Source: a virus
Virus record (IMG/VR): IMGVR_UViG_3300031951_000447
Span: 1-39,722 of that record
Length of the DNA: 39,722 nt
Reading direction: 5' to 3' (one strand)
Within the stretch, counting starts at the first letter, position 1; each line of letters begins with the position of its first letter. The notes below the pieces were generated by a model. It was not told where the DNA came from, did not search any database, and was given only the letters and a program-made list of their open reading frames with translations. Positions 3,933 through 18,489 of this stretch are shown here, piece by piece. The translations under genes were made by a program, and so were the position numbers.

Positions 3933-4327
3933 TGGCTCACTACGCGCTGATTGACGAAAACAATCTTGTTGTCCAGGTAATTACTGGGCGCAACGAGGAC
4001 GAGGTCGTAGACGGTATCTCTGACTGGGAGGAGTACTACGGCAACTTTCACGGCCTGAAGTGCAAGCGAACCAGCTACAACTGGAATCTGCGCAAGCAGT
4101 TTGCTGGCGTTGGCTATTCATACGATGAGGCCAACGACATCTTCATCAAGCCTCAGCCCTACCCGTCGTGGACATTGGACGAGAATCACGACTGGCAACC
4201 GCCAGTTGCAATGCCGATTGAAGTTGAGATGGGATTCCCAGTCAACTACACGTGGGACGAATCGTCGCTATCCTGGATTCGTGAAGTCTTCGCAGGACCA
4301 TTCTCTGAGGGCCCAAGTCCCGAATAA
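3932..4327 (+). CDS. Conserved small structural protein of the cyanophage-type 'MAHYALIDENN' family (131 aa)
   Basis: The sequence shows the hallmarks of a family very common in cyanophages and other aquatic phages: an N-terminal MAHYALIDENNLVVQVI strand, a central SYNWNLRKQFAGVGYSYDEA segment, and a PQPYPSWTLDENHDWQPPV block. Members usually lie among tail or fibre genes and are annotated as virion proteins of unknown role. Here it sits between the glycine-rich adhesin, sharing base 3932, and two oxygenase genes. The family match is from memory and unsearched; function is unknown. Confidence 0.7.
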   Translation: MAHYALIDENNLVVQVITGRNEDEVVDGISDWEEYYGNFHGLKCKRTSYNWNLRKQFAGVGYSYDEANDIFIKPQPYPSWTLDENHDWQPPVAMPIEVEMGFPVNYTWDESSLSWIREVFAGPFSEGPSPE

Positions 4328-4907
4328 GGACAACTGGATAGCAAATATTCGCGTCCTGGACGGGGTGCTGGATGAAGAAGAGTATTCGCTTTTCAACTCC
4401 TACATCGCCAAAGAAAAAGTAAACAGGACACCGCTTCCGGATGCGCACAGATTCATGTGCTACGACCAGGACATCAAGGCTGTATTTGACAACAAGCTGA
4501 CAGGGCTGACCTCTTCTCTGATGGGCATGCCCTTGACCCAGCACATCAAGCCGATATTTATTTCTTATGTCCAGGGTTCTCTAATGCAGCCCCACTCTGA
4601 CGGCTTCCACTATCCGGTCAGGTTCTTGCAAAAAGCGCAAGGCAATTCCAATTTGACCTATTGCACAGCGATCATCTATCTGGATGTCGACTGCGTTGGC
4701 GGCGAGTTGTACTTCAACAACCTTGACCACGCATACGTGCCACGCAGCAACCAGATGGTTGTGTTCCCGGCTCACGAGATATACCGGCACTCTGTCAAAG
4801 AGGTGGTGTCCGGATTTAGAGACACGTGCCTGATGTTCTACGCGTCAGACATCATGCTTGAGATGCACAAGGTTATGGTCGAGTACTCACCCTGGAAGGA
4901 TCTCTGA
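4281..4907 (+). CDS. 2OG-Fe(II) dioxygenase family protein (start uncertain)
   Basis: The protein resembles the Fe(II)- and 2-oxoglutarate-dependent dioxygenase fold. A metal-binding HxD lies in QPHSDGFHYP (H105, D107 counted from 4281). A distal His occurs in YRHSVKEV (H170), and Arg180 in GFRDTCLMF would bind 2-oxoglutarate. The start is doubtful. The conserved part begins at about 4332 (NWIANIRVLDGVLDEEEY), yet the frame has no ATG between 4101 and that point. GTG 4281 overlaps the preceding gene by 47 nt; GTG 4365 would cut into the domain. It is translationally coupled to a second oxygenase (TGATG at 4905-4909). A protein hydroxylase acting on a virion or host protein is plausible; the substrate is unknown. 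Confidence 0.72.
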   Translation: MKSSQDHSLRAQVPNKDNWIANIRVLDGVLDEEEYSLFNSYIAKEKVNRTPLPDAHRFMCYDQDIKAVFDNKLTGLTSSLMGMPLTQHIKPIFISYVQGSLMQPHSDGFHYPVRFLQKAQGNSNLTYCTAIIYLDVDCVGGELYFNNLDHAYVPRSNQMVVFPAHEIYRHSVKEVVSGFRDTCLMFYASDIMLEMHKVMVEYSPWKDL

Positions 4908-13527: not shown

Positions 13528-13761
13528 ATGACCAACGACAATGTCCAAGCGTTCCACCGCTGGGATCACCGCTACAACCACGCTGGCGACAACCAGTTCC
13601 TAGTGCGTAGTGCCAAACGACTGCGCAAGGGGACTCAGGTTCTCGCAAGGCTCAACAGTCAAGAGCAAGTTCTTGTATGGGTGAACAAGCCAGCAGAGTC
13701 CTTTGACGCTGGCTACCACACTTACCTTGCTCGTCCAGTCTGGGCAGGTAGCCATGTCTGA
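13528..13761 (+). CDS. Small unknown protein, first gene of the MoxR/VWA operon (77 aa)
   Basis: ATG 13528 has an AAGGAGG ribosome site. The product (MTNDNVQAFHRWDHRYNHAG then KRLRKGTQVLARLNSQEQVLVW) looks like a small beta-rich domain. Its length and general pattern (a charged loop, then VLxxL strands and a final YLARP strand) recall the paralogues at 17698 and 18149, though identity is low. Its TGA overlaps the start of the next gene by 8 nt, so it is probably co-translated with the accessory module. Confidence 0.45.
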   Translation: MTNDNVQAFHRWDHRYNHAGDNQFLVRSAKRLRKGTQVLARLNSQEQVLVWVNKPAESFDAGYHTYLARPVWAGSHV

Positions 13762-14488
13762 GTACGACGATCAGATCTTGGCAGAAGCCGCAAAGATCCT
13801 TTCTGAGGCTGAGAAAGCCATTGAGTCAGAGCGACCAGACAGCATGGCAGATGAGTTCTCTCGCCTTGAGCAGGCTATGTGGGAGCACATCGGCAACAAA
13901 GATCAAGAGCACATGATGTTCTTGCTACAACTTGTACCCCAAGACAGGCACAAGGAGACCATCGAGCAGGCAGAAGGTCGCCTCATCAAAGGTGAGCCCA
14001 ATGTGGTGACTGGCGAGCAACCAGATCTACTGCTCTCCATCACGCCACTATGCCAAGGTGGCGACATCTACGACATGCTGGAGGATCAGTACCTTGCTGC
14101 CCATGTCGCAACTTTGGAGTCAGAAGGCGTACTTGTTCGTATGACCGGTACTGCTACTGCCATCGACAAGGTTCCAGAAGTCAAGCGCGAGGTGATCGTC
14201 ACCACCATGCTTGTTGGTGATGCCATCTACATTGCGACAAGGTTCCTTGACGACAATGAGGTACAGCACACCACGATCCATGCGACCGAGTACAAGCAGG
14301 GTGAGAGCAAGATGATTGACGCAGTGCTCATGTTCTACATGGCACCCAAGGCAATGAGGCAGATGCGACCAGTGGTCTTTGATGCCTTGTTGGAAGATCT
14401 TACCGCACAGCGGATAAGAAACGGTGAGGAAGTATTCCCCACCGCGCAAGCAACCAACAGTCCAAAGGAGGACAACAGCAATGAGTAG
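13754..14488 (+). CDS. Unknown protein preceding the MoxR ATPase (244 aa)
   Basis: ATG 13754 is used because it overlaps the previous stop; an upstream ATG at 13703 would overlap more. The 244-aa product starts with an acidic helix (MSEYDDQILAEAAKILSEAE), followed by mixed alpha/beta sequence (REVIVTTMLVGDAIYIATRF) and a helix MAPKAMRQMRPVVFDALLED near the end. I recognise no family. The N-terminal helix and the C-terminal helix resemble those of the protein after the VWA gene (16654), suggesting distant paralogy. The gene overlaps the MoxR start by 8 nt, which implies a shared complex or regulation. Confidence 0.55.
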   Translation: MSEYDDQILAEAAKILSEAEKAIESERPDSMADEFSRLEQAMWEHIGNKDQEHMMFLLQLVPQDRHKETIEQAEGRLIKGEPNVVTGEQPDLLLSITPLCQGGDIYDMLEDQYLAAHVATLESEGVLVRMTGTATAIDKVPEVKREVIVTTMLVGDAIYIATRFLDDNEVQHTTIHATEYKQGESKMIDAVLMFYMAPKAMRQMRPVVFDALLEDLTAQRIRNGEEVFPTAQATNSPKEDNSNE

Positions 14489-15206
14489 CACAGTAGACAC
14501 CAACGCCATGACCACATGGCAGAAAGCCGAGTTCGCCATTGAGCACTCCAACAGAGTGCTTCTCTATGGTCTCCCCGGCACAGGCAAGACATACTTCGGC
14601 TTGACGCATGGTACGCAAGGCAAGAAGTCGTACCGTCTGGCTTGTACCGAGGACATGAGTTCAGCAGATCTTGAGGGCTTCTGGCGCCGTGAGGCATCAG
14701 GTTCACTCAAGTGGCACGAAGGCGTAGGTATCCGAGCATGGCGCGAAGGCGCACGGCTCGTGGTGGACGAGGTCAATCGCATCAACGGTGACGTTGAGTC
14801 AAAGTTGATGATGCTCTTGGACACTGAGGCAAGCGCATCGTGGGAGAACCCAGATACTGGCGAGATCGTCAAGCCCCACAAGGACTTCTCGGTCGTTGCC
14901 ACTATGAACGGTATGCCCGAGGATCTTGCGCCTGCGGTGCTTGACCGCTTGACGGTGCGTTGTGCGGTCAATACGCCCAACCCCAAGGCGATTGAGACTC
15001 TGCCCGAGTATCTGCGACAGTTGGCAATCGCCTTCACCGCAGAGGACGCACAGTACCGCTACTCCTTGCGCTCGTTCGTGGAGTTCCAGTCCATGTACGA
15101 GAAGTCCAAGAACCTCAAGGCTTGCGCTCAGGTTCTGTTCCCCGAGGTTCATGAGTCCATGATTGACTCATTGAGCATCGTGGCAAGTGAAGCAGGTCTC
15201 CTGTGA
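14481..15206 (+). CDS. MoxR/CbbQ/NorQ-type AAA+ ATPase (241 aa)
   Basis: A single AAA+ domain with Walker A GLPGTGKT (residues 30-37), Walker B RLVVDEVNR (about 94-102), sensor-1 VVATMNG (about 136-142) and arginine-finger region LDRLTVR. The size (241 aa) and DEVNR sequence fit the MoxR class (MoxR, NorQ, CbbQ, CobS), which act as hexameric chaperones that remodel or load metal into partner proteins, always with a VWA-domain adaptor. Here the adaptor gene follows at once with a GTGA overlap. An upstream AAAGGAGG precedes ATG 14481. In phages, CobS-like proteins occur in cyanophages, and an ATV-type archaeal virus uses a MoxR/VWA pair in tail extension. Confidence 0.85.
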   Translation: MSSTVDTNAMTTWQKAEFAIEHSNRVLLYGLPGTGKTYFGLTHGTQGKKSYRLACTEDMSSADLEGFWRREASGSLKWHEGVGIRAWREGARLVVDEVNRINGDVESKLMMLLDTEASASWENPDTGEIVKPHKDFSVVATMNGMPEDLAPAVLDRLTVRCAVNTPNPKAIETLPEYLRQLAIAFTAEDAQYRYSLRSFVEFQSMYEKSKNLKACAQVLFPEVHESMIDSLSIVASEAGLL

Positions 15207-16657
15207 CCACGACCCAACGCTTTGCGCCAGAGGCTCTCTCTGTACGCAAGGGTGCCAAGCACAACAACTTTGAGTCAAGCGGCAGTCTGCCCACAAGTCT
15301 TGACGGAGTGAGCGTTGTGCTTTCACCCACTGCGGCAGAGCACCAGTACTCTGCGCCTGTGGAGGAGGGTGATGCCATGCGGCGACTTCGTCGCTACGGC
15401 TTGATGCTCTCTCGCTACGGCTTGATGAACAAGCGCAAGATTGCTCACTCAGCCAATGCCTCAATCGAGTTGGTCAATGCCGCAGAGCGCATCGTCGCTT
15501 CGCGGTTGTACGAGACCATCTTCGGCGAGGATCCCACCATTGGCACAGTGAACCTTGTCCCACTTGCTCAGATCCTTGACCGAGATGAGCCAAGTCCAAG
15601 TGCCATGGCAGCAGCAATGGCGTATGTAGGTACACAAGCAGCATCAGACCTTGTCGCTCTCATCAAGAACGAGAAGGTGCGAGAGGTGCTTGAGTCCAAC
15701 TACAGGGACTTACAGTGGGCTTGCGAGCACTACTCACGTGTTGTACAGGCGCACATCAACAAAGATGGCGCATCTGCCACACGCACGTCCAACAAGGCAT
15801 ACCGCAACTTGGTCGCCAATCTCAAGCGCGAGATCACTTGGGGACAGAACGTCCTTGAGTCCACTCGCATGGAGATGGAAGCCAAGAAGGCAAAGGAGAA
15901 GTCAGAAGCGCACAAGCAAGCGTCTGGCAAGGACTCTTACTCAAGGCGCAAGGAAGATGAGATTTATGGCAGAAGGTTCCAGAATGGTAAGAGAACCTTG
16001 CGCCAGATAGTCCCTTCCATTGACGGGTGGGCTCCTGCCATTCTTGAGAAGTTGCCGCTTGTGTCCCCTCACACTGGGCGCAAGGGTCGCAAGATTGTGC
16101 CTGAGGCATACGGCAAGGACATCAAGTTCATCTCCCGTGAGGACACAGACCCAGAGCAGAAGATCTTTGGTCGCTATGTCCGTGCGACAGGTGGCGTAGT
16201 CATTGTCGATTGCTCAGGCTCAATGTCGCTTGACGAGAACGACCTGCGCACGATCATGGACGCTTCCGCTGGCACCACAGTCATCTGCTACTCAGATGGC
16301 GGTAGGTACAGAGGCACAGATGAGCCGAACATCTGGCTCGTGGCTTCTCGCGGCAGACGAGCAAGCGCATTGCCAGAGTTCCCCGGTGGCAATGGTGTAG
16401 ATGGTCCTGCCCTTGAGGTAGGTGTCTCAATGCGCAGGCACAATGAGCCAGTCATCTGGATCTCAGACACAAGGGTTACTGGCGCACGCGACATCGCGTC
16501 AGATGCCCTTCGTGACTGGTGCTTGATGTTTGCTGGCAGGCACAACATCTACATCGTCAGGCGACCAGAGGAAGCGGCAACGCTCCTTCGCCAGTTCCAG
16601 ATGGGCGCAAAGCCCAAGCGCAAGAAGTACAAGCACAGTGGAGGAGATGAAGTATGA
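15203..16657 (+). CDS. VWA-domain protein, MoxR partner (CobT/CbbO/NorD-like, 484 aa)
   Basis: GTG 15203 overlaps the ATPase stop. The N-terminal 200 residues are helical and unrecognised. Residues about 225-260 are a charged coiled coil (ESTRMEMEAKKAKEKSEAHK). The C-terminal third is a von Willebrand factor A domain with a complete-looking MIDAS motif DCSGSMS (D336-x-S-x-S), a downstream GGNGVDGPAL loop and a WISDTRVTG strand with the third metal ligand. The C-terminus is strongly basic (KPKRKKYKHSGG). In MoxR systems the VWA protein binds the client through the MIDAS metal while the ATPase remodels it. The client here is unknown, with virion proteins or host machinery as candidates. Confidence 0.85.
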   Translation: MTTTQRFAPEALSVRKGAKHNNFESSGSLPTSLDGVSVVLSPTAAEHQYSAPVEEGDAMRRLRRYGLMLSRYGLMNKRKIAHSANASIELVNAAERIVASRLYETIFGEDPTIGTVNLVPLAQILDRDEPSPSAMAAAMAYVGTQAASDLVALIKNEKVREVLESNYRDLQWACEHYSRVVQAHINKDGASATRTSNKAYRNLVANLKREITWGQNVLESTRMEMEAKKAKEKSEAHKQASGKDSYSRRKEDEIYGRRFQNGKRTLRQIVPSIDGWAPAILEKLPLVSPHTGRKGRKIVPEAYGKDIKFISREDTDPEQKIFGRYVRATGGVVIVDCSGSMSLDENDLRTIMDASAGTTVICYSDGGRYRGTDEPNIWLVASRGRRASALPEFPGGNGVDGPALEVGVSMRRHNEPVIWISDTRVTGARDIASDALRDWCLMFAGRHNIYIVRRPEEAATLLRQFQMGAKPKRKKYKHSGGDEV

Positions 16658-17346
16658 CCGATAGCAACGAGGAACTCATGTCTCAGGTCAAGGCGATCCT
16701 TGACGAGGCGAATGCCGACCTCAGCAAGAAGCAGATGGAGGAAGCAGTCAGGCTAGTTGAGACTGTGTCCACCAGCATTGGCAAGGAGTTTGAGATAGAA
16801 GGGGACAAGGTGCTTCTGTTCATGATGTACCAGACTCCTGTGTCAGAGGTGGACAAGGACAATGTCCTCAATGCCCACCTCATCGCAGGCTTGTCTGACA
16901 CAGAGGCAGAGGCACGAGGTTTCTCTGGGGGGAGTATCCAGATGCCCTTCACCTTTGACTCCATGTCAGATGCGGTAGAGAACATGAACAGCAGAATGGC
17001 TGCCGTCATGGCAGACATGGCGGCTGAAGGCAAAGGCTGGGCGACCATCACAGCGCACAAGCACCAAGCGACCACGATCTACATGTGTGTCGCAGGCGGC
17101 TCGCTCACTGTGACCAAGGTGCTACCCACAGGCGACAAGTTGTCAGAGTCCCGGGCAACTGGCGGCACTATGTCCACGCCACCTGCTGTGGAGTCTCTAC
17201 CCTCTGAGGCTTCACCATTGGCAGATGCTCAATGGCAGTTCACCGCCATGCCGCAGGTACTCAGGCAGCAGTACCCCAAGGCATACAAGGCGATGGTCAC
17301 AGAGATCATGAGCAAACTGGAAGGAATGACTGGAGATGATGAATGA
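16654..17346 (+). CDS. Unknown protein following the VWA gene (230 aa)
   Basis: ATG 16654 overlaps the VWA stop (ATGA). The N-terminus (NEELMSQVKAILDEANADLS) is a helix like that of the protein before the ATPase, and the C-terminus (MPQVLRQQYPKAYKAMVTEI) matches its MAPKAMRQMRP helix in spacing. Between them lie beta strands (VLLFMMYQTPVSE and TTIYMCVAGGSLTVTKVL) and a Ser/Thr/Pro linker (about residues 170-190). No known family is seen. The strict overlaps across 13754-17346 suggest that the four proteins form one functional unit. Confidence 0.55.
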   Translation: MTDSNEELMSQVKAILDEANADLSKKQMEEAVRLVETVSTSIGKEFEIEGDKVLLFMMYQTPVSEVDKDNVLNAHLIAGLSDTEAEARGFSGGSIQMPFTFDSMSDAVENMNSRMAAVMADMAAEGKGWATITAHKHQATTIYMCVAGGSLTVTKVLPTGDKLSESRATGGTMSTPPAVESLPSEASPLADAQWQFTAMPQVLRQQYPKAYKAMVTEIMSKLEGMTGDDE

Positions 17347-17488
17347 GCCAAGTGTCTTGCTTTATGGCACTCTTATTGTGCTCACGTCACAGGCTAAGGA
17401 GTATCAAGGCGTTGGACTGTACGCCAGACTCTTTGTCGCTTGTGCCGTGATCGTTGGGCTTTGGTACGCCCATCACTCAAGCAAGTAG
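17336..17488 (+). CDS. Small membrane protein at the end of the MoxR/VWA operon (50 aa)
   Basis: ATG 17336 (or 17339) overlaps the end of the upstream gene. The product starts MMNEPSVLLYGTLIVL and contains two hydrophobic stretches: residues 6-18, and 29-45 with LYARLFVACAVIVGLWYA. It ends HHSSK. The coupling suggests that the preceding module may be tied to the membrane. Function unknown. Confidence 0.5.
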   Translation: MMNEPSVLLYGTLIVLTSQAKEYQGVGLYARLFVACAVIVGLWYAHHSSK

Positions 17489-17697: not shown

Positions 17698-17976
17698 ATG
17701 GACAATGAGAACCTGAATGGACTGCGACAAGCAGTCGCTATGTTCCCCAAGGGCAAGTGGTATTCCACGAACCCCAAGGACAAGGAGACACCTTGGTATG
17801 TGTCCGTCGCAGATGGACAAGTCACGGGTGAAGTCACCGTTGGTGCCTACGTCTGGGTGACCAAGTCACGGAGCGCATTCCAAGTCGTGGAAGTGTTGCG
17901 ACATGAGGGCAGTCATACCGACAAGGAGGGACTGAAGCGCAGTCTGTTCTCAGTCAGGATCCTGTCGGAGATCTGA
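17698..17976 (+). CDS. Small unknown protein, paralogue 1 (92 aa)
   Basis: ATG 17698 follows a GAGGAGG site inside a conserved leader (CTACGTCATGGA in both copies). The product contains MFPKGKWYSTNPKDKETPWY and a C-terminal half (WVTKSRSAFQVVEVL, then HTDKEGLKRSLFSVRILSEI) that is nearly identical to the ORF at 18149. It is predicted to be a compact beta-rich domain of unknown role. It is monocistronic, with its own upstream element and a terminator directly behind, which suggests strong independent expression. Confidence 0.7.
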   Translation: MDNENLNGLRQAVAMFPKGKWYSTNPKDKETPWYVSVADGQVTGEVTVGAYVWVTKSRSAFQVVEVLRHEGSHTDKEGLKRSLFSVRILSEI

Positions 17977-18148: not shown

Positions 18149-18430
18149 ATGGATAACACGCAACGCATGGAGGCCCTGCGAAACGCAGTGGCACTCTTCC
18201 CGAGAGGCAAGTGGCACAGTGCCAATCCGAAGGACAAGGACACACCGTGGTTCGTGTCCGTCGCTGATGGGCAGGCAACAGGAACCGTCGAAGTGGGTTC
18301 GATGGTCTGGGTCACGAAGAGCCGATCGGCTTTCCAGGTAGTCGAAGTGCTGAAGGCGGAAGGTCAGCACACGGACAAGGAAGGACTCAAGCGGTCCCTC
18401 TTCTCGGTTCGGATCCTCTCAGAGATCTAG
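18149..18430 (+). CDS. Small unknown protein, paralogue 2 (93 aa)
   Basis: A tandem paralogue of the ORF at 17698. LFPRGKWHSANPKDKDTPWF and VSVADGQATGTVEVG align without gaps, and the last 20 residues (HTDKEGLKRSLFSVRILSEI) are the same in both. Third-codon positions differ often, so the protein has been kept under selection since duplication. ATG 18149 has GAAGGAGG upstream. A strong terminator follows. No known family; two retained copies with separate promoters and terminators suggest a dose-dependent or divergent role. Confidence 0.7.
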   Translation: MDNTQRMEALRNAVALFPRGKWHSANPKDKDTPWFVSVADGQATGTVEVGSMVWVTKSRSAFQVVEVLKAEGQHTDKEGLKRSLFSVRILSEI

Positions 18431-18450
18431 TACCGGCACTGGATGGGGAG

Positions 18451-18489
18451 AGCCCCCGCCGCCTTCGGGCGGTGGGGGTTCTTTTTTTT
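18451..18489 (+). terminator. Strong intrinsic terminator closing the early/accessory region
   Basis: An 11-bp stem, CCCCCGCCGCC (18453-18463) with GGCGGTGGGGG (18468-18478), a UUCG tetraloop, and a run of eight T (18482-18489). It lies 20 nt after the last accessory gene and separates it from the packaging and structural genes. Confidence 0.93.

Follow-up and report, generated by a model that had tools for sequence, protein, structure and literature searches.

Organization of the cassette and its genomic setting

The locus described here raises the question of what function may be served in a phage by a MoxR-class ATPase and a putative VWA protein whose genes are enclosed by those of two further proteins, A and D. 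The window, that is, the whole stretch of DNA analysed, is a 39,722-base IMG/VR virus record (IMGVR_UViG_3300031951_000447). Within it, five ORFs follow one another on the plus strand: gene A (13754–14488; 244 aa, pI 4.5), the MoxR gene (14481–15206; 241 aa), the VWA gene (15203–16657; 484 aa, pI 9.4), gene D (16654–17346; 230 aa, pI 4.5) and a gene for a membrane micro-protein (17336–17488; 50 aa). Successive ORFs overlap by 8, 4, 4 and 11 nt, which bears out the overlapping five-gene operon proposed in a first-pass annotation of this DNA. Gene A shares its first 8 nt with an additional ORF that ends at 13761, and the start of the operon is therefore likely to lie further upstream.

Genes for WhiB (6.7e-23), an SLT-type lysozyme and a YqaJ recombinase lie upstream of the cassette and the terminase large subunit gene lies downstream, a setting which is consistent with an actinophage. 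At the boundary between the cassette operon and the terminase and head genes, a candidate intrinsic terminator with a 19-bp stem and a T tail was found on the plus strand (18445–18486) by pattern match only. It should also be noted that positions 17698–17976 and 18150–18430 encode a tandem pair of small paralogous proteins, KGKWYSTNPKDKETPWYVSVADGQ and RGKWHSANPKDKDTPWFVSVADGQ, and that genes resembling this pair also come after the cassette in relatives. Elsewhere in the window, a 2OG-Fe(II) oxygenase domain was detected at 4101–4907 (PF13640, 1.8e-8).

The MoxR ATPase and the VWA protein

The product of 14481–15206 matched PF07728 (AAA_5) over the cut-off at 2.4e-18 and phrog_16448 at 3e-54, with a further match to phrog_249, the CobS of cyanophages. 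Its Walker A motif (GLPGTGKT, residues 30–37; 14568–14591) is invariant in an alignment of 11 relatives, as are D96 and E97 of the Walker B motif (VVDE, residues 94–97; 14760–14771) and the sensor-1 and Arg-finger residues. The family profile matches the structures of midasin, NorQ and CbbQ. By these matches the protein belongs to the AAA+ ATPases typified by NorQ, CbbQ and midasin, in agreement with the MoxR class to which it had initially been assigned.

The VWA protein (phrog_33218, 1.4e-91) appears to consist of a degenerate metallopeptidase-like N-domain and a C-terminal VWA domain. Taken alone it gave no Pfam match, to VWA or otherwise, and no VWA domain was retrieved when the VWA profiles were run against the sequences of the PDB. 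In a set of 30 sequences of the C-terminal domain, VWA_CoxE was matched in 10, VWA_2 in six and VWA in one, all weakly. The assignment of the window protein to the VWA class thus rests on motifs together with weak VWA_CoxE and VWA_2 matches of its family.

The MIDAS of this protein had been described as intact, a claim which holds in part. The DxSxS motif (D336, S338 and S340, within DCSGS at residues 336–340; 16208–16222) and the late aspartate D422 (within WISDTRVTG; 16466–16468) are invariant in the family, but the canonical threonine of motif 2 is absent family-wide and GN[GA][VC]D[GAL]PAL stands in its place. By sequence, therefore, the MIDAS is to be regarded as non-canonical and partial. 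The absence of the threonine may matter, since the T534V change of the MIDAS threonine in NorD abolishes activation of the client (PMC9976466).

A superfamily of flanking proteins

The first-pass annotation had also suggested that the two flanking proteins could be paralogous on account of similar N- and C-terminal motifs. Both likenesses are present, at the N-terminus as AAKILSEA in A and VKAILDEA in D, and near the C-terminus as PKAMRQMRP in A and PQVLRQQYP in D, the latter pair being placed in register by profile–profile alignment. This alignment (hhalign) gave a probability of 97.3% and an E-value of 2.2e-11 over 218 columns, compared with at most 2% for unrelated pairs, and the homology spans the whole length of both proteins. 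Circular iteration was ruled out as the source of the similarity by single-pass cross-matches obtained without iteration: a model built from A only reached D genes down to 4e-8, while a model built from D only reached A genes to 9e-11 and found a copy identical to the A of the window at 4.2e-6. In an iterated search of 6,735 ORFs, all matches with E<1 sat at A, C or D positions, C being the third member described below. AlphaFold2 models (mean pLDDT of 72 for A and 83.5 for D) have a common order of secondary-structure elements. In a tree of 181 trimmed columns, with midpoint rooting and modest deep supports, the downstream (D) genes fall together in a single clade with 50 members (support 0.94), and the A genes are paraphyletic to it.

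No Pfam, PHROG or NCBIfam family was found for A, and neither A nor D gave a significant match in Pfam, NCBIfam or PADLOC, so that the outcome named in the first-pass annotation as refuting its reading, flanking proteins that fall into known unrelated families, did not arise. Foldseek searches of A and D against the PDB returned nothing usable (best E-values of 0.03 and 0.09), and the BFVD structure matches of D were two uncharacterised viral proteins.

In some contigs MoxR is adjoined by C, a protein of 150–190 aa of the same superfamily. A profile comparison of A with C gave 83% and 9.6e-6, for which a clean set of 11 A sequences was used, a larger A set having been discarded as it contained C members. 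C is also present in larger phages, with MoxR found in 16 of 28 such records tested; the others may be fragments. Outside phages, C was detected in 36 bacterial loci, to judge by title mostly in MAGs of freshwater Acidimicrobiia and Ilumatobacteraceae, where it lies directly upstream of nadA (36 loci) and nadB (35 loci), and it is rare across the phylum (four of 296 genomes sampled). The homology of A and D, and their membership with C of one undescribed superfamily, is strongly supported by these sequence comparisons.

C also aligned with PPA1309 proteins (85%, 5.8e-6, 50 columns). The likeness to this family (NCBIfam NF040618) is confined to C, A and D giving no direct alignment, and against the curated cut-off of 70 bits the best superfamily member, of C type, scored 16.3 bits and A and D nothing. 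The possible distant relationship of C to PPA1309 is accordingly offered as a lead, not as proof.

Conservation of the cassette across phages

Relatives of the MoxR of the window were collected from 15 and then 69 IMG/VR contigs, and a profile of the VWA domain extended the collection to 117, of which 80 were kept. The viruses bearing the cassette appear to be a group of freshwater viruses infecting Actinobacteria. The gene order of the cassette recurs in related phages. Flanking sequence was long enough for inspection in 30 of the 69 contigs. All 30 have VWA after MoxR, 29 have D after that, and in 29 the gene before MoxR is A or C; the quartet therefore does co-occur elsewhere, a point on which the first-pass reading had been staked. 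YqaJ, GemA-like, lysozyme, WhiB and TerL genes are also syntenic around the cassette in relatives, which indicates that these contigs represent one phage group, and linkage inside a group carries less weight than linkage between groups. Between groups, the MoxR and VWA genes remain adjacent in contigs of 48–170 kb, and copies of A, C and D occur around the pair in varied arrangements. The cassette is a conserved, widespread module and a novel form of MoxR–VWA system. In the open-access literature, pairs in jumbo phages have been described (PMC7824862) and no description of a four-part phage version was found, as the earlier reading had supposed.

The cassette genes are under purifying selection, with dN/dS of about 0.13–0.6 where dS is unsaturated. 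A and D diverge fastest (median dN of 0.53 and 0.71, against 0.18 for MoxR), which fits partners of a variable target, or merely weaker constraint. Contig IMGVR_UViG_3300008120_000885 has its A gene and its VWA gene each broken into two pieces in different frames, through either decay or assembly error.

In tblastn searches of isolate phages, the VWA protein and C had zero matches and MoxR matched at about 27–31% identity only. A more distant MoxR and VWA pair was seen in Actinomycetia phage DSL-LC01 (6695–9657), the VWA protein being annotated there as a cobalamin biosynthesis protein; none of A, C and D was seen nearby.

The product of 17336–17488 contains one hydrophobic segment, at about residues 24–44, as expected of the membrane micro-protein originally proposed, and 11 close relatives have homologues of it. 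Of 41 contigs, 16 carry a hydrophobic micro-ORF no more than about 20 nt from the end of D, whereas the rate at random positions is 7%. The micro-protein is lineage-restricted, being absent or undetected in other lineages.

A chromosomal pair and the lost HExxH motif

A peptide-pattern search for the VWA protein in bacterial genomes found none, which reflects a limit of sensitivity, since homologues were later found by profile search. The latter detected the VWA domain in three of 296 genomes of the phylum and in 13 of 247 genomes of one actinobacterial class. In 11 of the 13 chromosomal regions read, nrdR, a PIG-L-like gene and dinB come after a VWA gene encoding an HExxH motif, and lexA lies beside the chromosomal MoxR in six; we take these genes to be those of LexA, NrdR, PIG-L and DinB, as recognised from their sequence alone. 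None of the 13 regions showed A, C or D in the vicinity of the pair. The chromosomal pair is possibly SOS-linked and, as far as could be found, is without a published description.

In the VWA proteins of large phages and bacteria, the HExxH motif lies near residue 55–90 in a conserved setting, for example SRVIRAHEMTHAKVSP, and is present in 22 of 78 non-redundant proteins. None of these proteins was assigned to a peptidase family by Pfam, and it is the motif alone that suggests zinc binding and activity as a peptidase. The N-domain of the window protein is homologous to this HExxH-bearing domain (hhalign 99.4%, 5.3e-22, 280 columns; unrelated controls below 1%). In the window, the columns aligned with HExxH read YGLML (Y65 to L69; 15395–15409), and in the small-phage clade YGLML, FGLLL and similar. 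Alignment noise was ruled out as a cause of the apparent loss by the profile alignment with controls.

In a set of 87 VWA proteins, HExxH is absent from all 50 with an adjacent D, an adjacent D is absent from all 30 with HExxH, and seven are without both. As the two groups occupy different parts of the MoxR tree, having split once, the correlation probably represents one evolutionary event rather than many and is suggestive, not statistical proof.

Proposed function

The cassette probably specifies a machine of MoxR–VWA type that remodels proteins with the energy of ATP, and in which a dead peptidase domain serves as docking platform and A and D as dedicated adaptors or clients. MoxR would form a hexameric ring, with the VWA domain docked into it in the manner of NorD in NorQ. 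In the VWA protein, the dead peptidase domain would act as a docking platform instead of an enzyme. A and D would attach to this protein, in the role of adaptors or else of clients, and steer the motor to its target. In some lineages the complex may be anchored to the membrane by the micro-protein. This explanation draws on the MoxR motifs, the conservation of the VWA protein, the constant pairing of the two, the homology of A and D, the charge complementarity between A and D (pI 4.5) and the VWA protein (pI 9.4), purifying selection, the coincidence of HExxH loss with D, and the precedents of NorQD and ATV (Acidianus two-tailed virus). A MIDAS without the threonine whose change inactivates NorD (T534V, PMC9976466) counts against it. 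Since in large phages and bacteria the pair persists with no A or D gene next to it, these partners would not be required in every version of the machine.

Within the remodelling machine, virion assembly is tentatively put forward as the likeliest single use, a guess which is weakened by the candidate terminators separating the cassette from the head genes. A strict form of it, in which MoxR and VWA fold A and D, as structural or scaffold-like clients, or assemble them into the head or tail, is possible but rather unlikely. The cassette does lie directly 5' of the terminase large subunit gene in those relatives whose sequence covers that stretch, and the jumbo-phage MoxR–vWA (PMC7824862) and Acidianus two-tailed virus (PMC4124505) systems offer precedents. 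However, the presence of C on chromosomes beside nadAB (36 loci) and its possible distant relation to PPA1309 suggest that the superfamily is not intrinsically structural, and the same terminators argue against the strict form.

Doubtful, too, is a role in host takeover or counter-defence, whereby the phage pair would mimic or compete with the MoxR–peptidase–VWA system of the host near lexA, nrdR and dinB, for example as a dead decoy. The homologous chromosomal pair with intact HExxH and its gene neighbourhood, the phage version without HExxH and the rapid evolution of A and D would all suit such a role. Set against this, the pair is present in only 13 of 247 genomes of the class and hosts of these phages may or may not carry it, larger phages retain HExxH, and the PADLOC matches are at P-loop level only. 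A more speculative proposal, to which we give still less weight, is that of an undescribed viral MoxR–VWA class, in which a peptidase–VWA chaperone akin to the lexA–nrdR–dinB pair would have become a pseudopeptidase platform with PPA1309-related adaptors, countering or redirecting the host system.

It is improbable that the cassette serves to insert a cofactor or metal into a metalloenzyme, as NorQD or CobNST does: in favour are the likeness of the MoxR profile to NorQ and CbbQ and the match to phrog_249, but CobT_C was unmatched, the MIDAS threonine is missing, and NorB, rubisco and CobN were not noticed among the cassette neighbours. That the genes are chance neighbours kept by descent in one phage group is scarcely credible, for although the largely syntenic surroundings make linkage within the group weak evidence, MoxR and VWA keep together on bacterial chromosomes and in phages as large as 170 kb, with A, C and D copies around the pair in varied arrangements.

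With these results an unannotated phage operon becomes a defined, widespread module. The contrast between a peptidase motif without adjacent partners and partners without the motif makes the roles of N-domain and adaptors in MoxR machines directly testable. In addition, the A/C/D superfamily links freshwater actinophages to chromosomal genes adjoining nadAB, and the study points to an uncharacterised chromosomal MoxR–VWA pair near lexA, nrdR and dinB.

Comparison with known systems

Membership of the CobNST cobaltochelatases was rejected as CobT_C (PF11775) had no match in the genome record, and known defence systems were unsupported, the PADLOC IetA matches covering the P-loop only. The ternary conflict systems, VMAP and others (PMC7159879), likewise combine MoxR and VWA with a third conserved operon protein, which may be VMAP, iSTAND, FtsH-type or beta-propeller. 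For A and D no significant match was obtained in Pfam, NCBIfam or PADLOC, libraries that may cover only some of these components; the match to PF20030 (bpMoxR), at 0.045, was far under the cut-off.

With NorQ–NorD and CbbQ–CbbO the cassette has in common the broad MoxR type and a VWA partner with an extra N-terminal domain. In NorQD, a VWA finger enters the pore of the ring and rotation remodels the client (PMC13036017), with contact between MIDAS and client as a further precedent (PMC13036017; PMC9976466), and a similar finger-in-pore arrangement would be expected here. The window differs from these systems in that no NOR or rubisco client was noticed near the cassette, the MIDAS threonine is lacking and extra paralogous partners are present.

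Closer in gene arrangement are the group 2.2 MoxR–vWA systems of jumbo phages, which likewise have adjacent MoxR and VWA genes and a peptidase-like N-domain in the form of a metallopeptidase–vWA fusion, and for which a role in virion assembly was proposed (PMC7824862). CobS of cyanophages is similarly paired with a neighbour annotated as a peptidase (phrog_459), that of Syn1 reading HEVGH. In contrast to both, the VWA protein of the window is without HExxH and without a tblastn match in isolate phages, and is flanked by A and D. Acidianus two-tailed virus resembles the cassette in combining a viral MoxR and VWA with further interacting viral proteins (PMC4124505). It differs in being an archaeal virus with p618 in the virion. 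In that virus the MoxR protein p618 binds both the VWA protein p892 and p387, each of which raises its ATPase activity (PMC4124505), and p618–p892–p387 is the nearest functional analogue of a viral MoxR–VWA pair with extra partners.
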